DNA from: Lutimonas zeaxanthinifaciens
GTDB lineage: Bacteria; Bacteroidota; Bacteroidia; Flavobacteriales; Flavobacteriaceae
DNA: 64,000 nt
Direction: 5' to 3'
Assembly (NCBI RefSeq): GCF_030503675.1
Contig: NZ_CP129964.1
Span: 1,798,001-1,862,000 of the forward strand
The notes under the pieces are model-generated. The model was not told the DNA's origin and ran no database searches. It worked only from the letters and a program-made list of their open reading frames with translations. The position numbers and the translations under genes were made by a program. This document shows, piece by piece, positions 9,683 to 59,764 of the stretch (its first letter is position 1; the number at the start of each line of letters is the position of its first letter).

Positions 9683-12600
9683 CTATAAATCAAAAAGATT
9701 ATTGGTCAAATTTTCATCAGATCTCGTCCCGTATGGATCTATTGAGATATACTTCGGTAACTCATTTACAACAATCTTAACAACAGTATCTTGTTTGTGA
9801 ATGTTACTCGACTCATAATAAAGGATTGAACTCTCATCTTTTACAGATGCCGGATGTGTTGAAAATAAGCCTATTTTAATCGGTTCATTAATGGCGATTT
9901 GTTCAATTTCTCCTGAGGATTTGGTTTCAAATCGTTTTGCTTTGATATTCACGGAAATTTCATAGGTTCCATCATCGATTTTTTTATACGAACTATCATC
10001 AATTGCCAAATCATAAATGATCACTTTTTTAAACCAGTCATCTATTAAAGAGTGATATTTGATTGGTGTTACCTTATATATTTCATCCAGAAACTCAACA
10101 GTAGTTAACTCGAACTGATTGATATTTCTATATTTATCCGTCATGATTTTTAGAACTTGGTTAACCTGATCTTCCCCGATAAGATCTCTTAAGGCCAACA
10201 TTGCAGTAAGTGCTTTTCCATAAGAGATAAAAGATTGGCCATCTACTTTATAAACTGGAGGTTCTACCTCGCTGGCCATAGATCTTCCTGAAAAATACTT
10301 TCTCCTTGCATCCTCACTAAGCTCATATAAAGCCCTTTTTCCATACATTTTCTCCATAACAACGGCCTCCGTATATTTTGCCAATCCTTCAACAAAAAGT
10401 GAACCTCCTGCAACGGGCTTGGCAAATAAAGTATGTCCCCACCATTGATGAGCAACTTCATGAATTGTTCTTTTGGCTACTAAATTGAAGGTTTCTTCAT
10501 CCCTTACATCATTCAAATATAATTTTTGTTCGTTCATGGATATCATACCAGGATGTGCAAATCCACCAAAAGACCAATGGGAAGGAACCTCTGCAATTCT
10601 TACATGATCAAAATTATAGGCTCCGAAGTTCTCCTGACAATAGTCTAAGGTTTGTTTTACACTGTTTTCAATTTCCATAATATTAAAATCATGGTTTTCA
10701 TCATAATACTGCTCAATGGATATTCCTTTATAATTAACTTTTTTCGTGACGTATTTAGCGGAAAAATAACCGACTTCCGGCAAAATCTTTTTACCGGATT
10801 TATAGTGAAAAAAGTTTCTGTTATTATCTGACCATTGTTTTATTAAACGACCGGAACTAATTGCCGTTTGGTCACCGGCTGTAGAGATAATTGTTTCGAA
10901 TCTTACTCTTTCATGTTTTACATCTTCCAATACAATATGTTTATCCGAATTATCTTCTTCCTGCCTTTCTGGTAAATTCCTCTTTTTTCGTTCGGATTTA
11001 GTTGAAATCTCTAAACCCTCAGTATAACCAAAAATAGGCTCAAAATTCACAAAACGATTGAGATAAGTACCATTGTTTATTATTGAATGATCTTGAACAT
11101 AGCCCTTTATTTCTTTCTTTAATTTATATGTAAAACCCACGGAATCATTAGGTTGCAAAGGTTTGTCATACTGAAATAGATAAGTGCCGAATACGGTGTC
11201 ATGGGTAACTAAATTCGCATTTTCCAGGGTAATAGACTCTAATGGAACTCTTTCCGTTATAAACAGTTCTGACATTGGTTGTTCACTTTTATTTTTTAGC
11301 ATATAATCAGCAGTAACTGTAAACATTCTCTCTTTTGGATAGATATCAACTTTTGTCTTTTTTGAGGTTGGATATAATCTTTCAATGCTGTTATATTTCC
11401 TGAATTTTCGCTCATAGTTTTCTTTAAAATCCAATCGATCATTCATGGTTTCATACTCTGAAGCAATATTTAAATTGTAGAAAACCAAACTCCCTGCACT
11501 AAAAAACAGTGCTGTCAGCATCATAATTGCCAACTTTTGTTTTCTTGTATGATTTAGAGCCAGCTGTTTTAATTTGATGGAAAAACCAGCCCCTACTCCT
11601 CTATTCCAAATTTTAAAAGATAAAACAGTTAATAACAAGCCTAAGGTGAACCAATAGATAGCTAAATGATCAAATAGTTTTGGTCCATCATAAAAACCAT
11701 TCATGTTCGTATACGATACTCTTGGCAGAAAGCCCAGGCTAGTCAAAGGATGTTCCAGGTTTAACATATTCGCTTTCATGCTTAAGATTACAATTAAACC
11801 GAAAATTCCCATTCCCATATATTTGTATTTTACCAAACTATGAACAAACAAGGCAATCATACAAAATATAGCCAGTTGTAAACCATAATGATAATATACA
11901 GATGCATAAAGACTAAATTCATAATTTGAATATCCCAATGCCATTTGAAAAATAATGCACATTAAAATTCCTGTAGAAATCAAAATTATAGGCAGTAATA
12001 ATAAGGCTGCAAACTTCGACAAAAAGAATACCCAGTTTGTTGTCGGAGTCGCATCTATTATCAAATTGAAATTCAGGTTGCGCTCTTTCCAAACGATTTC
12101 TGCACTGTAAAATACGATTAAGATCAGGCTAAAAACGCTGAGTGGATCAACTATTAATTCAATCAAATGATTCGTAAAGGGATATAAACTCACCCCGTAT
12201 TCCCCTCCGCTTATAACCGTAGAATATAACTCTGAAAATACAATAAACAACCACATGATCAACACCGCTATAAATGGTAAACTCTTAAAAACACTTTTCA
12301 ACTCCAATTTTAGCAAGGAGAAAAATGCAGTTTGCTGGGCCATAAAACCATGAATTGTATCTAATGGCTGATAGGGTAATAATGGTGTTTTATCCGTTTT
12401 TACTTTTCTTTTTTTATTTGATTTTTTAGAAATTTTTCGAAAAGAAAACACGCTGTAGGTCCCTAATAAAATTCCTGCCGAAACTAAGATCCATAAAAGT
12501 CTGTTCCATAAGAATAATCCCGAAAAAGACAATAACTGGTTGTTTTTTTGATAAGTAGTCCAGTATTGAGTCTGCTCAAAAAATGCTGCAATTCCAAATG

Positions 12601-13243
12601 GGTCCGCAACGGCTGCTATTGCCATACTCTCAGGTGAAGCCGGAACGGCTTGTGCCATTAACGGTGAGTTCAAAAAGATTGAGCTTACAAAATACAGCAT
12701 GTAAACAAATACAGCACTGACATAAGTTGCTGTGCTATTCCTGGTTAAGGTACTAACAGAAAATACAATGGTAGAACATATAAAAATATTAGGGAGAACA
12801 AAATATAGCCAGGGTTGCAGATAGGCGAGCAATTGAAATTTTCCTATTCGATCCTGATCTAAATTTGAAAAATGAATGCCCAGAATATAACCCAACAGAA
12901 AAGGTGTAAATGCCAATACACTAAAAATAAATGTACCACTAAAACGACTCCAAAAATAATCTGACTTTTTCAATGAGGAGCTGAAAATTAGCCCTTCCAT
13001 CTGGTGTTGTCCGTCTCTTAGCATAGCACTAATGGCAAAAAACATAATAATAAAAACGCTTCCCAGGGTAAACAGGCTAGTATGAAAATATACCTGATAA
13101 ACTGCGTTAAAGTTGATCCCTTCAGGTGCAAATCCCTGTCTTCCAACAAACACACCCAGGGCCAAAAACAAAATTGCAAATAAAGGAAATGCACGTTGCT
13201 TAAACTGATAGAAAACTTCAAATTGTAGTAAATTTTTAAACAT
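9683..13243 (-). CDS. ABC transporter permease fused to M1-family aminopeptidase
   Basis: 1186 residues. The N-terminal half (about 1-560) has two ABC-2-type membrane blocks of about six helices each. After one more helix near 595-615 comes an extracytoplasmic M1 (gluzincin) peptidase region. It contains HEVAH at 928-932 and the third zinc-ligand Glu about 19 residues later in SLFVEGLAKY. The permease part would pair with the ATPase encoded 3 bases upstream. The peptidase would sit on the periplasmic face and could trim transported or neighbouring peptides. The expected GAMEN exopeptidase motif is altered to GGFAHPGM. This architecture recurs in Bacteroidota; no substrate is established to my knowledge. 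The operon begins with a 28-codon basic ORF. Confidence 0.9.
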   Translation of the reverse strand: MFKNLLQFEVFYQFKQRAFPLFAILFLALGVFVGRQGFAPEGINFNAVYQVYFHTSLFTLGSVFIIMFFAISAMLRDGQHQMEGLIFSSSLKKSDYFWSRFSGTFIFSVLAFTPFLLGYILGIHFSNLDQDRIGKFQLLAYLQPWLYFVLPNIFICSTIVFSVSTLTRNSTATYVSAVFVYMLYFVSSIFLNSPLMAQAVPASPESMAIAAVADPFGIAAFFEQTQYWTTYQKNNQLLSFSGLFLWNRLLWILVSAGILLGTYSVFSFRKISKKSNKKRKVKTDKTPLLPYQPLDTIHGFMAQQTAFFSLLKLELKSVFKSLPFIAVLIMWLFIVFSELYSTVISGGEYGVSLYPFTNHLIELIVDPLSVFSLILIVFYSAEIVWKERNLNFNLIIDATPTTNWVFFLSKFAALLLLPIILISTGILMCIIFQMALGYSNYEFSLYASVYYHYGLQLAIFCMIALFVHSLVKYKYMGMGIFGLIVILSMKANMLNLEHPLTSLGFLPRVSYTNMNGFYDGPKLFDHLAIYWFTLGLLLTVLSFKIWNRGVGAGFSIKLKQLALNHTRKQKLAIMMLTALFFSAGSLVFYNLNIASEYETMNDRLDFKENYERKFRKYNSIERLYPTSKKTKVDIYPKERMFTVTADYMLKNKSEQPMSELFITERVPLESITLENANLVTHDTVFGTYLFQYDKPLQPNDSVGFTYKLKKEIKGYVQDHSIINNGTYLNRFVNFEPIFGYTEGLEISTKSERKKRNLPERQEEDNSDKHIVLEDVKHERVRFETIISTAGDQTAISSGRLIKQWSDNNRNFFHYKSGKKILPEVGYFSAKYVTKKVNYKGISIEQYYDENHDFNIMEIENSVKQTLDYCQENFGAYNFDHVRIAEVPSHWSFGGFAHPGMISMNEQKLYLNDVRDEETFNLVAKRTIHEVAHQWWGHTLFAKPVAGGSLFVEGLAKYTEAVVMEKMYGKRALYELSEDARRKYFSGRSMASEVEPPVYKVDGQSFISYGKALTAMLALRDLIGEDQVNQVLKIMTDKYRNINQFELTTVEFLDEIYKVTPIKYHSLIDDWFKKVIIYDLAIDDSSYKKIDDGTYEISVNIKAKRFETKSSGEIEQIAINEPIKIGLFSTHPASVKDESSILYYESSNIHKQDTVVKIVVNELPKYISIDPYGTRSDENLTNNLFDL

Positions 13244-13246
13244 GAC

Positions 13247-14137
13247 TTATGAGGCTTTTTTATAGGATTGGTTGAACAAGGCGGTAAAATAATAGTCTTC
13301 CAGATTTGGAATGATGGCATCAAATCCGGCTTCCGGTTTGCTTTCTGAAAAAACTCTGATTTGAGTTTCTCCGGAAACCAGTTTTGTAGAAATTACATTA
13401 AAAGCTTTTTTATAAACATTAATGTCAGTTTTTGGAATAATTTTGGTCCAGATTTTCCCTTCAATACCTGCCACAAGATTTTTGGGATTTCCCTGAGAAA
13501 TAATTTCCCCCTCTGAAAGTATGGCCATTTTAGGACACAAATTACGAACATCTTCCACGATATGTGTGGACAGAATGACGATGACATTCTCTCCTATTTC
13601 GCTCAGTAAGTTCAAAAATCGATTACTTTCTTCAGGGTCCAATCCTGCTGTGGGTTCGTCCACAATTATAATCTTTGGATTAGCTAATAAGGCCTGAGCA
13701 ATTCCAAAACGTTGACGCATTCCACCAGAAAAAGTAGCTACAGATTTTTTTCTGTGCTGATAGAGATTTACCTGTTGTAATAAAGCTGTTACCTGTTCTT
13801 TACGCTCTTTCTTGTTTATTATTCCTTTCAAAACCGCAAGATGATTCAATAATTTTTCAGCAGAAATTTTTGGATACACACCAAACTCCTGAGGGAGGTA
13901 TCCCAGGGTTTTTCGTATTTCATAAGGTTTTTGAACTACATCTGAATTGTTGAATGAAATGGTTCCTGTCGTTGGTTCCTGTAAGGATGCAATTGTTCTC
14001 ATTAAGGATGATTTCCCTGCCCCATTGGCCCCTAATAATCCAAACATTCCGTTCGTGATTTCCAGATTGATTCCGTTTAAGGCTTTTACGCCATTGGGGT
14101 ATGTTTTTGTCAGGTTTTTTATAGATAAGGTATTCAT
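13247..14137 (-). CDS. ABC transporter ATP-binding protein
   Basis: 296 residues with a complete nucleotide-binding domain: Walker A GANGAGKS (36-43), Q-loop in GYLPQEFGVYP, signature FSGGMRQR (about residues 133-140), Walker B IIIVDEP followed by TAGLDPEE, and switch His in LSTHIVED. A C-terminal extension of about 80 residues follows. It belongs to the class that pairs with ABC-2 permeases. It starts 33 bases after the 28-codon ORF and ends 3 bases before the permease/peptidase gene, so the three are almost certainly one transcript. Proposed role: energising the permease fused to the M1 domain. Confidence 0.93.
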   Translation of the reverse strand: MNTLSIKNLTKTYPNGVKALNGINLEITNGMFGLLGANGAGKSSLMRTIASLQEPTTGTISFNNSDVVQKPYEIRKTLGYLPQEFGVYPKISAEKLLNHLAVLKGIINKKERKEQVTALLQQVNLYQHRKKSVATFSGGMRQRFGIAQALLANPKIIIVDEPTAGLDPEESNRFLNLLSEIGENVIVILSTHIVEDVRNLCPKMAILSEGEIISQGNPKNLVAGIEGKIWTKIIPKTDINVYKKAFNVISTKLVSGETQIRVFSESKPEAGFDAIIPNLEDYYFTALFNQSYKKAS

Positions 14138-14170
14138 GTCTCTTTGTTTATATTAGATTTAGAATAAAAT

Positions 14171-14257
14171 TTATTTGAAACGTCTTTTGGCGTTCCATCT
14201 AATGCCATTTGTTTTGATTAATCTGTTCTTGTACTGATTATTAATTAAGGTTCTCAT
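14171..14257 (-). CDS. 28-residue basic micro-ORF, first gene of the ABC/aminopeptidase operon (RW-motif peptide, divergent)
   Basis: A 28-codon ORF starting MRTLINN and ending G-I-R-W-N-A-K-R-R-F-K. Eleven of 28 residues are Lys or Arg, and there is no acidic residue, signal peptide or double-glycine leader. The tail matches the [IV]-[KR]-W-[SN]-x-x-R-x-[FY] motif of the three micro-ORFs at 36305, 59354 and 59508, although K-R before the motif and G after it are missing. The ATG follows AAATCAAAATT, typical of Bacteroidota starts, about 25 bases below a TTTG-N17-TAAGTTTG promoter. No terminator separates it from the ATPase gene. It could be a transported or processed peptide, a leader peptide or a small regulator. 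The longer frame extending back to 14368 would begin before the promoter and is unlikely. Confidence 0.6.
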   Translation of the reverse strand: MRTLINNQYKNRLIKTNGIRWNAKRRFK

Positions 14258-14281
14258 AATTTTGATTTTTTTAATTTGAGA

Positions 14282-14310
14282 CAAACTTAAAGCGATCTGA
14301 AAGCGCCAAA
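14282..14310 (-). promoter_or_regulatory. Bacteroidota housekeeping promoter for micro-ORF/ABC operon
   Basis: On the minus strand TTTG (14310-14307) is followed after 17 bases by TAAGTTTG (14289-14282). This matches the flavobacterial TTG / TAnnTTTG consensus. Transcription would start near 14275, giving a leader of about 20 bases before the 28-codon ORF. Confidence 0.7.
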
Positions 14311-14428
14311 TAATTAATTTGATATAAAGGGTTATTCTAAGGCCATACTTTTTGAATATGAGCACCAATCGTATTCATCCTAAAAACTGATGTGTTCATG
14401 CCAATTATCATAGTGTGTGTCAACTTGC

Positions 14429-14459
14429 TTGTCAAGACAATCAAACTTGATTACTTTTG
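14429..14459 (+). promoter_or_regulatory. Possible promoter for the two-component operon
   Basis: TTG (14429-14431), 20 bases, then TACTTTTG (14452-14459), which fits TAnnTTTG. The predicted start point falls at or just before the chosen ATG at 14464, which would make the kinase mRNA leaderless or nearly so. A start further upstream cannot be excluded. Confidence 0.4.
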
Positions 14460-14463
14460 GCTC

Positions 14464-15594
14464 ATGATTAAATTTCTAAACAAATACAAAGCTTTTATTA
14501 TTGGGCCTTCAATTGTGTTGCCCTTGTTCTATTTCTTAGATTATATTGGTTTTATAATTCTCCCTGAAGACAAGACCTATGAAATTGTTATTTATACACT
14601 GATTTGGGGGCTTATAATTGCTTTACCTATATATTACTACCAGTATTTAAAAACAAAAAAGAAGACGGTGATCCGAGTTATCAGTCTGATCATTTTGTTT
14701 GTCATGACTTTAGTCATTGATTCCATGATGAATTTCCCGGATAATCCAATTACTTTCATCCTTCTAATGGTATTTTGGTTGGGTATCGCTTATTTACTGG
14801 TTCCCGGGTTTATGAAAAAATACTGGAAATTAATTGCAGTCTTTTATATTCCTTTATTGGCTTATTTTATTTATCTGCGGCTATTTTCAGGCGATTTGGA
14901 AGCCTATTTGATCATCAAAGAAGACTTTCCCTTTATTGTTTTCTTTCTGCCCATTCCGATTTTGTTTTTGGTCTGGATCTTTGAGCAATGGAAATGGATT
15001 CAAAATCTCAAAGCTGAAAAATCAAAGACGGAATTATCATTGTTACGAACGCAGATCAATCCTCATTTCTTTTTCAATACCCTAAATAATTTATACGCTT
15101 TAACCGTTAAAAACTCCGATCAGGCGCCCGAGGTAATCTTAAAATTATCTGATATGATGCGCTATACCATTTATGAAGGAGAAAAAGATCTGGTAAAGCT
15201 TCAGGATGAGATCGACTATTTAAAAAACTATATTGAATTGCATAAAATTCGATACAGGAAGTCTGTAGATATTAAATTCGATCATGACATTGATAATAGC
15301 ATAACTGTTGCTCCTTTGTTGTATATTATACTTTTGGAGAATGCCTTTAAACACGGAGTGGAAACCCTGGCCGAAAATGCTTTTATCCATATAGATTTGT
15401 TTGAAAAGGATAACTTTATCTATTTTGTAATAGAGAATAATTTTGATCCGAATGAAGTGAAAGCGTCAAACGGAATTGGACTCAAAAACCTGAAAAGAAG
15501 ACTCTCATTACTTTACGAGAACAAACATGAACTACGCATTGAATCAGCGGGCAATAACCATAAAACCATTTTAAAGATTTCAAAGCATGCTTAA
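14464..15594 (+). CDS. LytS/YehU-type sensor histidine kinase
   Basis: 376 residues. About six hydrophobic segments fill residues 10-175. A short coiled linker then leads to a His_kinase (PF06580) domain with LRTQINPHFFFNTLNN, phospho-acceptor His201. A HATPase region follows with ENAFKHG (N box) and NGIGLKNLKRRL (G box). The membrane part has no recognised sensor domain, as in kinases that sense peptides or membrane state. The frame is open upstream to 14392, but the ATG at 14464 (MIKFLNKYKAF) gives a sensible N-terminus. Its last 8 bases overlap the response-regulator gene. It is divergent from the micro-ORF/ABC operon, a frequent arrangement for a regulator and its target. Confidence 0.9.
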   Translation: MIKFLNKYKAFIIGPSIVLPLFYFLDYIGFIILPEDKTYEIVIYTLIWGLIIALPIYYYQYLKTKKKTVIRVISLIILFVMTLVIDSMMNFPDNPITFILLMVFWLGIAYLLVPGFMKKYWKLIAVFYIPLLAYFIYLRLFSGDLEAYLIIKEDFPFIVFFLPIPILFLVWIFEQWKWIQNLKAEKSKTELSLLRTQINPHFFFNTLNNLYALTVKNSDQAPEVILKLSDMMRYTIYEGEKDLVKLQDEIDYLKNYIELHKIRYRKSVDIKFDHDIDNSITVAPLLYIILLENAFKHGVETLAENAFIHIDLFEKDNFIYFVIENNFDPNEVKASNGIGLKNLKRRLSLLYENKHELRIESAGNNHKTILKISKHA

Positions 15595-16291
15595 GTATAT
15601 AATCATTGATGATGAGCCTTTGGCACATGAAATTATAGAAGAATTCTGTAGTATGTTACCACATATTCAATTGGAAAAGAATTGTTATAATGCCATGGAG
15701 GCTATGCAGTATTTAAATGAAAATACGGTGGACTTTATGTTTTTGGACATAAATATGCCCAAATTACGCGGGCTTGATTTTTTAAAAACATTGAGCTATC
15801 CTCCGAAAACCATTGTTACAACGGCCTACAAAGAGCATGCCCTGGAAGGATTTGAACTAAATGTAGTAGACTATATTTTAAAACCTTTTAGTTTTGACAG
15901 ACTGGTTAAGGCAGTCAATAAAATATCCGACAAGCAACCAACAAAAACAATAATCAAGGAGGTATCAGGCTCAAAGGATCATTCCACACGTATTTTTGTG
16001 AAAGGAGATAAAAAGCATCATCAGATCGACTTAAATGATTTGATGTTTATTGAGGCATTCGGAAACTACACCAAACTATTTTTAAAAGATGAAATGATTG
16101 TGGTTCATGAAAAAATTTCTCATTATGAAGAGATGCTGAACCCTACTCAATTTTTAAGAGTCCATAAATCTTTTATTGTTGCCATCAACAAAATTAAATT
16201 AATTGAGGGCAACAGGATTCGCATTGATGATCACAAAATCCCTATTGGACAAACTTATAAAAGTAAAATCAATAAGCTTTATAATTCTTAA
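15587..16291 (+). CDS. LytTR-family response regulator
   Basis: 234 residues. The receiver domain (1-115) has acidic pocket DDE at 8-10, phospho-acceptor Asp54 in FLDINMP, the TTA switch Thr and Lys in LKPF. A linker follows, then a LytTR DNA-binding domain (about 130-230) with DLMFIEAFGNYTKL and FLRVHKSFIVAINKI. It starts inside the kinase gene (8-base overlap), so translation is coupled. Such regulators bind direct repeats upstream of target promoters. The obvious candidate target is the divergent peptide/ABC/aminopeptidase operon, but no repeat could be assigned with confidence. Confidence 0.94.
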   Translation: MLKYIIIDDEPLAHEIIEEFCSMLPHIQLEKNCYNAMEAMQYLNENTVDFMFLDINMPKLRGLDFLKTLSYPPKTIVTTAYKEHALEGFELNVVDYILKPFSFDRLVKAVNKISDKQPTKTIIKEVSGSKDHSTRIFVKGDKKHHQIDLNDLMFIEAFGNYTKLFLKDEMIVVHEKISHYEEMLNPTQFLRVHKSFIVAINKIKLIEGNRIRIDDHKIPIGQTYKSKINKLYNS

Positions 16292-16348: not shown

Positions 16349-19300
16349 CTATTTCTTAATAATCTTTATGGTATTATAACTTTTCTCGTTGTAAACCTTT
16401 AGAAAGTAAATTCCATTGATCAGGCTTTCAACATTCACCATGCTCAGATCTGATTTTTGCTCCAAAACCTTCTCTCCCAGCACCGAATATATTTCAATTT
16501 TGGTAAATTCAGTTATGCCTGAAGATTTCAAATAAAGAATATTTGTCACCGGATTCGGATAAATCCTTATGGAATCATAGTTCCAATCTCTGGCACTAAG
16601 TGTTGCGACTTGATCAACATCATCAAAATAGAATGTAGAGTTTGGGGAACCATCTCCTGTATTTCCAAAATCAAACATAAAAACGATCCTGTCATACAAC
16701 GTTGCCCCTAAACGGGAAAAATCCCAGCTTAATGTCTCCCAGGTTCCTGATTCTTTGGTAAGCACATCCAATTCCGCAAAAGCTCCCGGATTCGATTGTT
16801 GTTCAAGTTTCATCCTTACTGTTGTGCCAACCGGGGCTTCTGTCCATAATTTTAAGGTCAAATACTTTGCTGATGAGAAATCTAATCCTCCTTGTAAATT
16901 TAGATAGGCACCGGCCCAGACATCTCCTCCATCCCTTATGATTTTTGCCAGGTTCTCACTGGAATTATTGAGGTCCTGGGGCGAAGTAACCGGCTCTACC
17001 GTTGCAGTTCCTCCATTAAAACTGATAAAATCAGAGCTAACCGGAGAGGCTTCAAAATCAAAGGGTAATCCTATTTCTACGGGGATGCAAACATCAGAAT
17101 TATACGTGAATGTCATTTTGCCCAAATTAAACTCTCCATTATCCACTGCCAATCTTAAAACATGTTCGCCTTTTGTAAGATTAATGCTGCTGGCCTTACT
17201 ATTCCAGTTAGCCCAACCTCCTGTAGTTGACATAACAATATCAGGACTTACTTTTTCTCCTTCTATCTCAAAGTAGAAAGGCCCTCCTCCTCCGTTGTTA
17301 CCCGAAGCATATCTTAAATTAAGATCATAACATCCTGTTTTTTCAACATCTATGGTATACTCCAACCACTCTCCTGCCGTAATCCAACCAAGGTTTGCTC
17401 CTTCGTTTATGTCCGAGACTGCATCGACATATTCTTCCGGCCTGAAACCTCCCTGATTGTCTGCAGTAGAATCAAAATAAGTGATGTTCTGACCAATTCC
17501 TCCTTCAAAAGTATCATAGTGCCCTGCCTGTATTGTCCCCGGAATGGCGTGTGGAGTTCCCGGATAAGGAACCTGGTTACCCACCTGAACAGTGATCACA
17601 TTAGTAACATTAAAGTCTGAGCCAGCATAAACCTTGGCATAAACAGAATAGATTCCTAATTCTAAATTAGAAATGCTCAATTCATAAGGAGCGCCGCTGT
17701 CTTCCCCGAGCAATTTATCATCATTATAAAATGCAACTTTGGTGATGCCACTGCCTTCAGTTGTTGCTGTGAGGTTCACACTTTCATTTTGATCTACATG
17801 ATAGAAATCTGCAGAAAGCACGCCGGATACATTTAGGTCCCGGTTGGTAGCCATTGAATTGGCAGGTACCTGAAGGCTAAAACCATCAGAAAAATCAACT
17901 GTGATGCCGCTGTCGGAATAATTATGAGCCACATAAGTTGTTTGCCCGTTATCTTTAAAAGATACGGCAATCGGATAATTGGCCGTTACGGAAGCATCAA
18001 CCGTCCCCATAGCCTTCATTCCATGCAACCAGTGATACGTTTGCGCATCCGAAATACCAAATTTTAAATTTCGATCAGGATAAGAATCATAGAGGTCTAA
18101 GGCAGACTGAGGATCGATCAAAGAAAGAAATTTCCAATAGGTATCATGCCATAAATTTGGGTTTTCTTCATTATTCAAAATTCCGGTATTCGCCGTGATC
18201 TCTGTCCATAGGCTGCTTGCATATTCCTGGTTATGGCCTAGATACAGTGAACCTCCGTGAATCGGATACATCTCTATACCGTAGGAAGCGGCAATATCAG
18301 CCGTCCAGAAGGTACCGTTATCATATGAATTCCCCCAAACCCTGGAAACCAGGCTATACTGTTGTGTGGGTTGAAAATTTCGTTGATACATATCAAACCA
18401 ATACTCATCAATAGCTGTTTGTTCGGTTGTATAGATATAGATTCCCAAATCTCTGATTGCATCATCTTCAGTAATGGTTCCCCAATGAATTAAAGAGGAA
18501 GCAAACTGCATACTTTCTGAGGTGGATTCCTGATCGTTCCCCTGTGGGAAAGTAGCAAATCCATTTGCCCAGCTATGTCCTGCATAAGGACTGAAATTTC
18601 TTAAAAAAGGAAACTGATCGTCATTTCTGTTGTCAGATGCCGCATCTCGAATTAACAAACGGATCATGTCTCCCCATTTATCGGCCCAACCAGGCTCATA
18701 TTGCTCCATAAAAGCGGCTGCATGAATAAAATAACCCCAGTGAAAATGGTGATCATTAATATTATTATCCTGTCCGTGACCAGCCGGATAACCCAGCATG
18801 GACGACCAGGTATCATTGTAATAAAATAAGAATGCAACCTCACCCGATTGATAGCTTAACCAATCTTCCAATCGTTCTTTAATGGTCGCGATCATTTTAT
18901 CTCTTGCTTCTGTATTACCGATTTGATCCGCTATTCTTGCCGTCTGGATCAATCGATTCATAACCTGGCCCTCATTATAGGAATCCGTCCATGTTGCAAG
19001 CGCGTCGTTTTCAATTTGTGAAATTTTCGAATTCAGGTCAGCAGGACTGTATTCCGGGCTAAAATGAACTAAATTTGGCAAGGTAGGCAGGATTCCCTTA
19101 AACGTATTTTCTACTGTAAAACTGTTTCCGTTCAAGGTTTTCAATTCTCCTCTGACCGACTCATAGCTATATTCATCAGGTGTTGCCGAGCCTGTTGCCA
19201 GATTGTTCCATTGATGTGGCAATAGTCCAAGCAGAACATTTGTTTCTGATCCTTCCTTTACTTCTGTAATTACGTTAAACGTTGTTGTGAGCTTTGAACT

Positions 19301-20074
19301 CGACTCATCGTAATTCCATTCGGTATTTGTATTTACAGGAAAAACATAGGCATACTTTTTATATTCCAGGGCAACTGCCTTTATGTTGGTAGTACCTTGA
19401 GGAAGCATGGCCATCGACCAGTAATTTCTCCCGTTTAAAGTTGATGTATATGTTGATCCTGAAGCAGACCATGTACTTCCTGCAGGGCCATAAAACACAA
19501 AATCTGCCCCATGTGATGCATCCTTTATGATAAGTAATTCCCCATCAACCGATACAGTTCCGGAATTAACTTTGATTTCAACAACATCATCATTTTCTTT
19601 TTCAAAGTAGATAAAAGGCATTCCAATACCAGAAGTTGCTTTTAGTTCATGCCCACTGTTTTTCCAGTTCATTGTGACCGTCCAGTCAGAGAAATTAGAT
19701 GCAGTTGCTTTTGAGGTATTTAATCCTGAAAGCCTCACTTCTATAGGTGAAGAATCTCCAATGGGCCCCCAGGGAATATAGGTTACAATTAAACCTTGAT
19801 TCGTTGTTTTTAAGGTCATTGGGTAATTGAATAGATTATCGGCATGGTTTTCTTTGATCAGCGTTGACCACCAATCATTTGTTGGAACCGGTTTTCCTGC
19901 CGCATTTCCACTTAATTGAGGGGAACCTGAAGGAAATCCGTTTCTTCCCGCAGCATCCGTGCCGGGAAAGGTTGTTGCATAGCTTCCATTTCCCACAGTA
20001 ACCTGTGCGGAAATAATTAAAGAATTAAGAAGAAAAAGAAAGGTGACTATTTTTAAAGGTAAATATTGTTGCAT
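16349..20074 (-). CDS. Secreted GH81 endo-beta-1,3-glucanase with CBM6, second CBM-like domain and T9SS tail
   Basis: 1241 residues. A signal peptide (to about 23) is followed by a GH81 catalytic region (about 30-740) with PTNDWWSTL at its start and the catalytic Glu pair E516/E520 in GNDQESTSES. Next come an Ig-like domain (about 750-830), a CBM6-like domain (about 845-990, ending in the RLAVDNGEFNLGKM strand), another carbohydrate-binding-like beta-sandwich (about 1005-1150) and a T9SS type A sorting tail (about 1165-1241: IYPNPV, GIYFLKVYN, final IKK). GH81 enzymes cut beta-1,3-glucans such as laminarin or callose. The protein should be exported and released or surface-bound. It stands alone, without SusC/SusD genes, so it is not in a classical glucan locus here. 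Confidence 0.93.
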   Translation of the reverse strand: MQQYLPLKIVTFLFLLNSLIISAQVTVGNGSYATTFPGTDAAGRNGFPSGSPQLSGNAAGKPVPTNDWWSTLIKENHADNLFNYPMTLKTTNQGLIVTYIPWGPIGDSSPIEVRLSGLNTSKATASNFSDWTVTMNWKNSGHELKATSGIGMPFIYFEKENDDVVEIKVNSGTVSVDGELLIIKDASHGADFVFYGPAGSTWSASGSTYTSTLNGRNYWSMAMLPQGTTNIKAVALEYKKYAYVFPVNTNTEWNYDESSSKLTTTFNVITEVKEGSETNVLLGLLPHQWNNLATGSATPDEYSYESVRGELKTLNGNSFTVENTFKGILPTLPNLVHFSPEYSPADLNSKISQIENDALATWTDSYNEGQVMNRLIQTARIADQIGNTEARDKMIATIKERLEDWLSYQSGEVAFLFYYNDTWSSMLGYPAGHGQDNNINDHHFHWGYFIHAAAFMEQYEPGWADKWGDMIRLLIRDAASDNRNDDQFPFLRNFSPYAGHSWANGFATFPQGNDQESTSESMQFASSLIHWGTITEDDAIRDLGIYIYTTEQTAIDEYWFDMYQRNFQPTQQYSLVSRVWGNSYDNGTFWTADIAASYGIEMYPIHGGSLYLGHNQEYASSLWTEITANTGILNNEENPNLWHDTYWKFLSLIDPQSALDLYDSYPDRNLKFGISDAQTYHWLHGMKAMGTVDASVTANYPIAVSFKDNGQTTYVAHNYSDSGITVDFSDGFSLQVPANSMATNRDLNVSGVLSADFYHVDQNESVNLTATTEGSGITKVAFYNDDKLLGEDSGAPYELSISNLELGIYSVYAKVYAGSDFNVTNVITVQVGNQVPYPGTPHAIPGTIQAGHYDTFEGGIGQNITYFDSTADNQGGFRPEEYVDAVSDINEGANLGWITAGEWLEYTIDVEKTGCYDLNLRYASGNNGGGGPFYFEIEGEKVSPDIVMSTTGGWANWNSKASSINLTKGEHVLRLAVDNGEFNLGKMTFTYNSDVCIPVEIGLPFDFEASPVSSDFISFNGGTATVEPVTSPQDLNNSSENLAKIIRDGGDVWAGAYLNLQGGLDFSSAKYLTLKLWTEAPVGTTVRMKLEQQSNPGAFAELDVLTKESGTWETLSWDFSRLGATLYDRIVFMFDFGNTGDGSPNSTFYFDDVDQVATLSARDWNYDSIRIYPNPVTNILYLKSSGITEFTKIEIYSVLGEKVLEQKSDLSMVNVESLINGIYFLKVYNEKSYNTIKIIKK

Positions 20075-36304: not shown

Positions 36305-36418
36305 TTATAATCCGTAGTTTCTGTAATTTGACCATCTAATCCTTTTACTGTCTTTGAACGTTGAATAATGATTGAAACGAATTTCGTTTGTTGCGTTACT
36401 GATTATTGTAGTTTTCAT
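36305..36418 (-). CDS. 37-residue RW-motif micro-protein (orphan unit)
   Basis: A 37-codon ORF beginning MKTTIISN and ending K-R-I-R-W-S-N-Y-R-N-Y-G-L, too short for standard gene callers. It aligns end to end with the ORF at 59508: same length, Trp29 in both, same final Y-G-L-stop. It also aligns with the ORF at 59354. Shared marks are [FY]-S-x-[FY]-[KR]-x-[TS], K-R-[IV]-[KR]-W-S and R-x-[YF]-G. Codons for conserved residues differ synonymously (AAAAGG versus AAAAGA, ATT versus ATC). The start follows AACCAATATT. It lies alone between the Hsp20 terminator and its own terminator. A weak palindrome TACAC-N8-GTGTA at 36475-36492 lies upstream. Basic, no signal peptide; function unknown. Confidence 0.8.
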   Translation of the reverse strand: MKTTIISNATNEIRFNHYSTFKDSKRIRWSNYRNYGL

Positions 36419-36589: not shown

Positions 36590-37066
36590 TTATCCAACCA
36601 CGATCTTTCTGGCTGGTTTTGGCTTTGCTTCTTCTTTTTTCGGGATACTTACACTTAATATACCGTCCTTATAAGTAGCTTCAATTTTTTCTTGTTCTAC
36701 TGTCTCCGGCAGACTAAAGCTTCTTTTAAACGAGGCGTATCCGTATTCTTTACGTGAGTAATTTTCTTCTGTTTTTTCATCTTCTTTTGTTACTTCCATC
36801 GAAATAGACAAAGTCTCATCTTCAATATCAATAACAAAATCTGATTTATTAAATCCCGGAACCGCCATATCGAGCGTATACGCTTCTTCGCTCTCCTTAA
36901 TATTTACCTTAGGAGTGCTAATACCTTTGTTGAAGTTGCTCGTTTTTACATTCGCAAATTCTTCTCCAAACAGTTCATCGATAAAAGAAGTCCATGCCGG
37001 AAATCCGGTCATCGCATTATGTTTTCTTAAGACATTTCCGTTTTTATTTACTATAAGATTGTTCAT
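36590..37066 (-). CDS. Hsp20/alpha-crystallin small heat-shock protein
   Basis: 158 residues. The alpha-crystallin domain spans about 48-145, with VNIKESEEAYTLDMAVPGFNKSDF, the SRKEYGYASFKRSFSLPETV beta strand region and the closing motif GILSVSIPKKE (G-x-L form). A Lys/Pro-rich tail follows. The protein is an ATP-independent holdase for unfolded proteins in the cytoplasm. It is monocistronic, with its own terminator directly downstream. Confidence 0.95.
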   Translation of the reverse strand: MNNLIVNKNGNVLRKHNAMTGFPAWTSFIDELFGEEFANVKTSNFNKGISTPKVNIKESEEAYTLDMAVPGFNKSDFVIDIEDETLSISMEVTKEDEKTEENYSRKEYGYASFKRSFSLPETVEQEKIEATYKDGILSVSIPKKEEAKPKPARKIVVG

Positions 37067-59195: not shown

Positions 59196-59269
59196 TTTTT
59201 ATTTCAAAATATTTTTTCACCTCCTCTACCCTTTGATATTCAAGGGTTTTGTGTTAAATATTTGTTAAT

Positions 59270-59294
59270 ATAGTACTTGGTTTTACATAGTACT
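59270..59294 (+). repeat. Direct repeat ATAGTACT upstream of the micro-ORF pair
   Basis: ATAGTACT occurs at 59270-59277 and 59287-59294, a period of 17 bases. The inner AGTACT is itself palindromic. The second copy abuts the TGTAAC element. It could be a regulator site for the micro-ORF operon, or chance in A/T-rich DNA. Confidence 0.4.
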
Positions 59295-59323
59295 GTAACA
59301 AATTGATCAAATGGTGCGTCTAT
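59294..59323 (+). promoter_or_regulatory. ECF-sigma-type promoter candidate for the micro-ORF pair
   Basis: TGTAAC (59294-59299), 17 bases, then CGTC (59317-59320) followed by TAT. AAC at -35 and CGTC at -10 are the general pattern of extracytoplasmic-function sigma factor promoters. The predicted start leaves a leader of about 25 bases before the ATG at 59354. The assignment is by motif only; no ECF sigma gene is in the window. Confidence 0.45.
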
Positions 59324-59353
59324 ATAGTAGAAACCAATTTAAAATAACACATT

Positions 59354-59470
59354 ATGAAAAATTTATTAAGCACTCCGACAGAATCCGAATCAAGAAAATA
59401 TCTTACATTTTCTAATTTCAGAAACACAAAAAGAATCAAATGGTCAGAATACAGACATTTCGGTCATTAA
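59354..59470 (+). CDS. 38-residue RW-motif micro-protein (tandem copy 1)
   Basis: A 38-codon ORF starting MKNLLSTP and ending K-R-I-K-W-S-E-Y-R-H-F-G-H, with Trp30. It shares with the next ORF and the one at 36305 the blocks [FY]-S-x-[FY]-[KR]-x-[TS], K-R-[IV]-[KR]-W-S and R-x-[YF]-G. Net charge is strongly positive; there is no signal peptide, double-glycine leader or Cys. The ATG follows AATAACACATT. The gap to the next ORF is 37 bases, and the pair is closed by a terminator at 59644. Function unknown. Confidence 0.8.
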   Translation: MKNLLSTPTESESRKYLTFSNFRNTKRIKWSEYRHFGH

Positions 59471-59507
59471 TTAAAAAAATTAAGTCTAATACATCAAACA
59501 AAATATC

Positions 59508-59621
59508 ATGAATACAAGTATTAACCTTTCAAGCACACAGGCCAGGGAACAATTGTACTTTAGTGATTATAAGTATACAAAAAGAGTCAAATGGTCAGAA
59601 CACAGACGTTATGGATTATAA
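59508..59621 (+). CDS. 37-residue RW-motif micro-protein (tandem copy 2)
   Basis: A 37-codon ORF starting MNTSINLS and ending K-R-V-K-W-S-E-H-R-R-Y-G-L, with Trp29. It matches the minus-strand ORF at 36305 in length, Trp position and the final Y-G-L-stop, and the upstream neighbour in K-R-x-K-W-S-E. Codon changes at conserved residues are synonymous (GTC/ATC aside, which is conservative). The start follows AACAAAATATC. It is the second gene of a two-gene transcript. Confidence 0.8.
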   Translation: MNTSINLSSTQAREQLYFSDYKYTKRVKWSEHRRYGL

Positions 59622-59643
59622 TATAGAGAACCCACCTTAGTTA

Positions 59644-59676
59644 AACCTATTCAGTTTCTTGAGTAGGTTTTTTTTT
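59644..59676 (+). terminator. Intrinsic terminator of the micro-ORF pair
   Basis: A 10-bp stem, AACCTATTCA (59644-59653) with TGAGTAGGTT (59660-59669, one G-U), a 6-base loop, then a run of T to 59676. It closes the two-gene micro-ORF transcript. Confidence 0.85.
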
Positions 59677-59764
59677 GGTTTCTAATCTCCCCTTTTTATC
59701 ACTATACTTCTCATTTTAAAATTATTATCTATCTTGTATCTTGATTAACCTTAAATCTTAAATC

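Follow-up and report, generated by a model that had tools for sequence, protein, structure and literature searches.

We analyzed a 64,000-nucleotide stretch of the Lutimonas zeaxanthinifaciens genome (contig NZ_CP129964.1, positions 1,798,001 to 1,862,000; hereafter the window), in which a 28-codon open reading frame (ORF) precedes the genes of an ABC ATPase and of a permease carrying an M1-type metallopeptidase domain, opposite a divergent LytS/LytTR two-component system. In our reading, to which we give a probability of about 0.57, this micro-ORF would encode a trans-acting envelope-stress micropeptide that is co-expressed with a LytTR-controlled exporter and is neither a cis-acting attenuator nor a dedicated substrate of the pump. 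The computational evidence consists of a conserved coding sequence, its position as a cassette in front of the exporter genes, a conserved regulatory module with repeats in the shared intergenic region, and tandem arrays of related genes behind promoters of the extracytoplasmic function (ECF) sigma type.

The 28-Codon ORF Is Conserved as a Coding Sequence

Judged by its conservation, the 28-codon ORF (14171-14257, minus strand; peptide MRTLINNQYKNRLIKTNGIRWNAKRRFK) is a gene, as a sequence-only reading of the locus had supposed. We consider it more than a chance ORF because the 28-aa query had matches at E ≤ 1 in 165 of the 397 Flavobacteriaceae genomes (the least significant ones are doubtful and a few hold stop codons) and because its differences from L033, the same-genus orthologue in the equivalent position, are mostly synonymous (9 synonymous and 6 non-synonymous codons). 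All 29 seed peptides share M1, W21, N22, K24, R25, and R26. Among 47 non-redundant ORFs, a set picked by protein similarity and hence favoring conservation at the protein level, several conserved residues use differing codons. Arginine 26 is encoded by CGT, CGC, CGA, AGA, or AGG, and mismatches are most frequent at the third codon position (0.27, 0.32, and 0.43 at positions 1, 2, and 3).

The micro-ORF is the first cistron of the exporter operon. It follows a predicted sigma-A-type promoter, TTTG-N17-TAAGTTTG (14310-14282, minus strand, read from sequence), at the place where the earlier reading had put it; TAnnTTTG has been published as the sigma-A −7 box of a flavobacterium (PMC9723704). The ATPase gene (13247-14137, minus strand; Pfam ABC_tran) has its ATG 33 nt past the micro-ORF stop codon, and the permease gene (9683-13243, minus strand) comes next, its product having 13 predicted transmembrane (TM) segments by hydropathy and a C-terminal Pfam Peptidase_M1 domain. 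The micro-ORF had been described as leading into the ATPase gene without a terminator. This is nearly right, except that a weak terminator-like hairpin (7 pairs, 3 of them G-C, tail AATAAATTTT) lies within the micro-ORF itself; the same stretch folds less stably or into a different structure in 14 other leader ORFs.

An Optional Cassette in the ABC/M1 Operons

Comparison of orthologous loci indicates that the micro-ORF is an optional cassette in the 5′ untranslated region (5′UTR) of the exporter operon. Of 66 operon loci, 7 without the ATPase gene in the fetched stretch were dropped, and 13 of the remaining 59 operons have a family micro-ORF at most 400 nt upstream of the ATPase gene. The recurrence that had been suggested as a check is thus found, including in both fetched Lutimonas operons, L033 and L037, the copy in L037 being divergent. 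The cassette sits between the ATPase start and the TATGTTTG promoter, which is present in 12 of 13 orthologous leaders in the stretch inspected; at this position L035 and L042 have a 5′UTR of about 46 nt, as read from sequence.

We placed presence and absence on a tree of 51 operons. These are the window and those of the 59 that remained after exclusion of L069, which lacks the ATPase start, of L057, which is short, and of seven with less than 40% identity. The cassette is present in 14 and absent from 37. This tree, obtained by a quick method and with some long branches, requires as drawn at least six gain or loss changes, five of which are forced by well-supported branches. Co-occurrence was examined in a table of 299 genomes, where handles G000 to G298 are assumed to denote the same genomes across searches and the thresholds are E ≤ 1 for one 28-aa query and E ≤ 0.01 for the profile of a second, 37-aa group of the family. 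Of the genomes with an ABC/M1 orthologue, 13 of 24 have the 28-aa group, versus 120 of 275 among those without (p = 0.39).

We take the ATPase and the permease to resemble the Bacteroidota proteins bearing the product name "ABC transporter permease/M1 family aminopeptidase." They have in common an ATPase and a permease with a C-terminal M1 domain and its zinc site. This domain matches PF01433, and the zinc-site residues H928, E929, H932, and E952 (HEXXH and the downstream glutamate) are invariant in 51 of 51 sequences. The difference lies in GXMEN, the exopeptidase motif whose glutamate anchors the free N-terminus: the aligned positions read G-G-F-A-H, with alanine in 50 and serine in 1 of the 51 at the glutamate position. 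N-terminal trimming can therefore not be assumed. Searched against the PDB, the whole permease had no match at E ≤ 0.001, matches being confined to the M1 domain.

The Facing Two-Component System and a Probable Operator

The genes on the opposite strand encode a LytS-type histidine kinase (14464-15594, plus strand; Pfam His_kinase PF06580) and a LytTR response regulator (15587-16291, plus strand; Pfam Response_reg and LytTR), which overlap by 8 nt. The ORF list, the Pfam matches, and hydropathy agree with the gene order, ORF coordinates, and six TM segments of the kinase given by the sequence-only reading; its kinase start, GTG 14392, is another matter. The start is probably ATG 14464, because the open frame in L004, L006, and L019 aligns only from residue 25 of the 400-aa ORF. 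The closest relative, L002, makes this assignment uncertain: its frame is open as well, and the alignment begins at residue 1.

The pair is a conserved partner of the operon, homologues of both LytS and LytTR being encoded opposite it in 52 of the 59 loci; in relatives of about 30% identity (L085, L086, and L088), neither was found within the stretch. The strict LytTR half-site occurs in 9 of 59 loci (0.72 in shuffles), and a relaxed pattern was used instead. Of 51 loci, which include the window and were selected with a 45% limit, 44 have half-sites [TC][GCA]AA[CT] spaced 21 bp apart within the upstream 260 nt, against a mean of 6.7 and a maximum of 11 in shuffles. The pattern was derived from these same loci; the spacing peak provides an internal control, with 62 pairs at 21 bp, whereas no other spacing between 15 and 30 has more than 12. 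The repeats are present both with and without the micro-ORF. In the window they are TGAAC and TGAAT (14394-14398 and 14373-14377, within 14373-14398, minus strand), and they fit a probable LytTR operator in the shared intergenic region. Like LytS/LytTR systems (PF06580 and PF04397), the module combines these domains, overlapping genes, and direct repeats two helical turns apart; it differs in that the pair faces a divergent ABC/M1 operon and that its operator is predicted from sequence. On its other side, the LytTR gene adjoins a gene (16349-20074, minus strand) for a GH81 glycosidase with a CBM6 domain and a type IX secretion tail.

Tandem Arrays behind ECF-Type Promoters

Reading the promoters of other family members led to tandem arrays under the conserved element TACT..G.....CA[AT]AGTACTGTAAC followed by CGTCT. 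The encoded peptides are basic, mostly 24 to 38 aa long, and end in W-x3-R-x-[YF]. Our survey, which is non-random and comprises the best matches and hand-chosen places among the matches listed, covers 153 distinct arrays with 268 ORFs: 72 single, 53 double, 23 triple, 4 quadruple, and 1 quintuple, hence 81 tandem arrays. A [TG]GTAAC-N-CGTC promoter lies within 330 nt of 102 arrays, against 0.3 expected from shuffles and 0 for the reversed pattern; its spacer is 16 nt in 99 of these 102. A flavobacterial sigma-ECF motif with a CGT box at −10 has been published (PMC9723704). A terminator-like site precedes any gene of at least 90 aa in 81 of the 153 arrays (10 to 16 of 153 shuffled stretches hold one). 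Another 21 arrays directly head a larger gene, among them those of six ABC/M1 operons, none with an ECF-type promoter, and of three HlyD/MacB operons.

Genome-wide, TGTAAC-N16-CGTCT has 31 matches in five genomes versus 6 for the reversed control, some single matches being due to chance. Besides arrays, what follows the motif includes an ABC operon and genes for secreted proteins, for a TolC-like protein, and, in one genome, for a sigma factor; these labels come from reading the sequence rather than from profiles, and some matches lie inside genes. The matches suggest a regulon of the envelope type.

The family has no name in Pfam or NCBIfam: none of nine micropeptides tried had a match above the curated cut-offs, and two matches fell far below (MobC, E 0.11; DUF7706, E 0.079). 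No description of it was found in the literature, within open-access text that leaves most subscription papers outside, and matches to six sequence fragments were unrelated DNA strings. Across the phylum, a first look that scored at most 21 candidates per genome gave matches in 7 of 395 genomes at E ≤ 0.01, five in the same family and two partial and weak. Within the genus, the degenerate pattern W-N-x-K-R-R-[FY] was uninformative (12 matches versus 14 for the reversed control). A phage origin was set aside for lack of any tblastn match in a phage collection searched with one hand-made consensus of the 28-aa group. Type I toxins of the Ibs/Ldr kind are hydrophobic membrane-spanning peptides made from arrays. 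We rejected this identity for the family, as the isoelectric point is at least 9.9 in all 259 distinct peptides (median 11.5) and no long hydrophobic stretch was seen on reading them.

The 28-aa and 37-aa groups occur together in 6 of 299 genomes, with an odds ratio of 0.16 and, before any correction for kinship, p = 5e-6. Their shared promoter, tandem habit, and motif spacing, along with this mutual exclusion, support the view that they form one functional class. AlphaFold2 predicts two helices for the 37-aa form, a model that says little (mean pLDDT 73, pTM 0.32).

Several further genes accompany the arrays. Many 28-aa arrays, as in L005, L115, and similar loci, are followed by a different micro-ORF of 43 to 44 aa that often ends in W-x3-[KR]-[RH]-[FY]-x-H; the one example tried had no match in Pfam or NCBIfam. 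A third type of micro-ORF (...YF..GFGW[NS]T[DN]R[LF]Y... and variants) lies upstream of 37-aa arrays in L181, L183-L185, L200, and L203 and seems to be co-transcribed with them. A secreted-looking protein of about 229 aa without a Pfam match (L005:1868-2557 and homologues) is encoded beside many 28-aa arrays (15 loci), divergently where checked. Secreted-looking proteins of 107 to 113 aa, possible regulon partners, directly follow arrays or the ECF-type promoter in L010, L011, L286, and L307. Finally, in L158 and L162-L164 a looser palindrome, TACT[AT]TG-N5-CA[AT]AGTA, precedes either what is presumably a CreD-like gene or a two-gene operon starting with a 152- to 154-aa protein, and the palindrome may be the operator of a wider repressor regulon.

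Other Copies in the Window and the Genome

A profile built from array peptides and searched in the 299 family genomes at E ≤ 0.01 found 44 genomes and, in the L. zeaxanthinifaciens genome (G000), eight ORFs. With the 28-codon ORF, this genome has nine family ORFs at six loci, four of them in the window. One, a micropeptide of the 37-aa group (MKTTIISNATNEIRFNHYSTFKDSKRIRWSNYRNYGL; 36305-36418, minus strand), follows an HSP20 gene (36590-37066) and has a gene for a molybdopterin oxidoreductase on its other side. In G253 and G025 as well (L220 and L221), it comes after a similar gene, of 158 aa, and 28-aa members adjoin HSP20 in L012 and L024. The other two form an array on the plus strand, with copy 1 of 38 aa (59354-59470) and copy 2 of 37 aa (59508-59621), both of the 37-aa group. 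This array is preceded by the conserved element described above, here with the near-palindrome TACTTGGTTTTACATAGTA and a predicted ECF-sigma-type promoter, TGTAAC-N17-CGTCT (59274-59321, plus strand), and followed by a terminator-like hairpin with a T-run (59643-59678, plus strand), again as read from the letters. A gene for a 144-aa membrane-protein-like product comes after the array, also in G253 and G025. At G000:492610, the element has a changed −10 region and precedes three copies of 24 aa.

With a gap of 17 nt, the 37-aa member at G000:105066 precedes the HlyD, ABC ATPase, and MacB/FtsX permease genes of an operon that is divergent from a sigma-54 response regulator and a kinase; the layout is kept in G253 and G025. 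The arrangement of a two-component system facing a micropeptide and an exporter thus has a second, non-homologous case in the same genome. It belongs with the MacAB-type exporter operons that have NtrC-type regulators and shares with the ABC/M1 operon a family micropeptide as first cistron, but its parts have no homology to the permease or the regulator of the ABC/M1 locus. The HlyD-linked peptide is identical in G000 and G253, with 5 synonymous and 0 non-synonymous changes, and the HSP20-linked peptide shows 5 synonymous and 1 non-synonymous change. The cassette therefore recurs in exporter operons that face two-component systems, yet these are a minority of its places.

A Proposed Mechanism and Its Alternatives

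In the mechanism that we propose, the LytS/LytTR system would control the divergent exporter operon. Its regulator would bind the intergenic direct repeats, spaced 21 bp apart, and activate the sigma-A promoter. In the lineage of the window, the transcript would begin with the micropeptide cassette in its 5′UTR. Elsewhere, family peptides would often be made from the tandem arrays, under an ECF sigma promoter of the envelope-stress type. We infer that these promoters and repeats work as named and that envelope stress is the signal. The micropeptide, co-induced with the envelope-stress machinery, would accumulate and, within the cell, act in trans by way of the W-x3-R-x-[YF] motif at its C-terminus. 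Its gene, inserted as the first cistron, would have come under the control of several envelope-response regulators, at this locus LytTR. Its target might, at a guess, be an anionic membrane lipid or RNA. Trans action is suggested by the 81 of 153 arrays that meet a terminator-like site before any gene of at least 90 aa.

Several findings weigh against this mechanism. A third of the survey (51 of 153 arrays) belongs neither to the leader nor to the terminated class. The ending W-x3-[RK]-x-[FYH]-x(0-6), found in 253 of 259 distinct peptides, owes part of its conservation to the way these were obtained, with profiles and from a non-random survey. Comparison of the 28-aa and 37-aa profiles aligns the C-termini only weakly (P 2.4e-4 and 0.031), and kinship of the two groups therefore rests partly on the shared promoter, arrays, and motif spacing. 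Relative to G253, the copies of the 59-kb array do not show a purifying pattern (1 synonymous and 3 non-synonymous changes; 1 and 2), changes being few. Lastly, the cassette occurs in two types of exporter operon, and in G108 a family member lies inside a similar HlyD/MacB operon, between the ATPase and permease genes, which would also suit an exported peptide.

Export is the core of two alternatives. Phenol-soluble modulins are short peptides without signal sequence, encoded in tandem and exported by an ABC transporter. The broader alternative, which we hold to be doubtful, would make the family their Bacteroidota counterpart: a class of leaderless micropeptides produced in bulk from arrays through an envelope ECF sigma factor, carried as a portable 5′UTR cassette by ABC exporter operons under LytTR or sigma-54 control, and exported, with two groups replacing each other across genomes. 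The family peptides are likewise short, tandem-encoded, and without signal sequence, but they are set apart by an ECF-type promoter and by a conserved, basic motif at the C-terminus, and operon proximity is their sole link to export. The narrower alternative, in which the ABC pump of the window would export the micropeptide as a leaderless secreted signal or antimicrobial to which LytS/LytTR responds, appears unlikely. It would account for a cassette in two exporter operons that are unrelated but both face a two-component system, and for tandem arrays of short peptides lacking a recognizable signal sequence, and the peptides are predicted to be helical, with modest confidence (mean pLDDT 73). 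Against it stand the absence of linkage between the 28-aa group and the ABC/M1 orthologue, the copies that follow HSP20 or stand alone, and an M1 domain devoid of the aminopeptidase glutamate. The sequence-only reading had likewise raised the idea that the peptide is transported, trimmed, or sensed. A dedicated module of this kind finds no support: 37 of 51 operons are without the micro-ORF, co-occurrence is lacking (p = 0.39), and of the 153 arrays 21 stand at the head of a larger gene, while an ECF-type promoter precedes 102.

Quite unlikely, in our view, is a cis-acting leader, in which translation of the micro-ORF, perhaps with stalling at its C-terminus, would tune translation or transcription of the ATPase and permease genes. 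TnaC and the Erm leaders are the leader peptides of attenuators. Like these, the micro-ORF comes first in the transcript and is most strongly conserved at the C-terminus, just ahead of the stop codon; its distance to the ATPase ATG is 26 to 42 nt in most loci, and a larger gene directly follows 21 of the 153 arrays. The family differs in being found more often in free-standing arrays and in having no conserved leader structure among the 13 leaders folded (L052, whose promoter lies outside the stretch, was excluded). These were overall no more folded than shuffled sequences (mean z +0.48; L061 was the most folded, z −1.77), and Rfam gave no match at E ≤ 1 in 13900-14700 or 59200-59720. Unstructured leaders, gaps ranging from 11 to 131 nt, and arrays, 81 of which meet a terminator-like site before a larger gene, disfavor action in cis, as do the 37 operons without the cassette. 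Stalling of the macrolide "+X+" type at a C-terminal R-[FY]-R was rejected, the 37-aa group mostly ending in R-[NRH]-[YF]-x and many members being free-standing.

In a last alternative the cassette would be a near-neutral passenger, derived from a mobile or recombining micro-ORF that inserted into the 5′UTR and whose retention or loss makes no difference to the operon. This would suit the repeated changes on the operon tree and the extended or altered C-termini in L031, L037, and L039, but is very unlikely given the mostly synonymous changes from the same-genus orthologue, the retention in both fetched Lutimonas operons, and the protein identity of the HlyD-linked copy in G000 and G253.

Implications for the Flavobacteriaceae

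Matches to the 28-aa query (E ≤ 1) or the 37-aa profile (E ≤ 0.01) occur in 171 of the 299 sampled Flavobacteriaceae genomes, so that over half seem to hold genes of this family, often as multiple copies behind a stress-type promoter. Such genes can be sought by a simple rule: TGTAAC-N16-CGTC, tandem micro-ORFs, and a W-x3-R-x-[YF] end. The family also carries a caution for annotation, since a micro-ORF ahead of an exporter need not encode the peptide of that exporter. With these genes in hand, an unannotated part of a probable envelope-stress response becomes directly testable.

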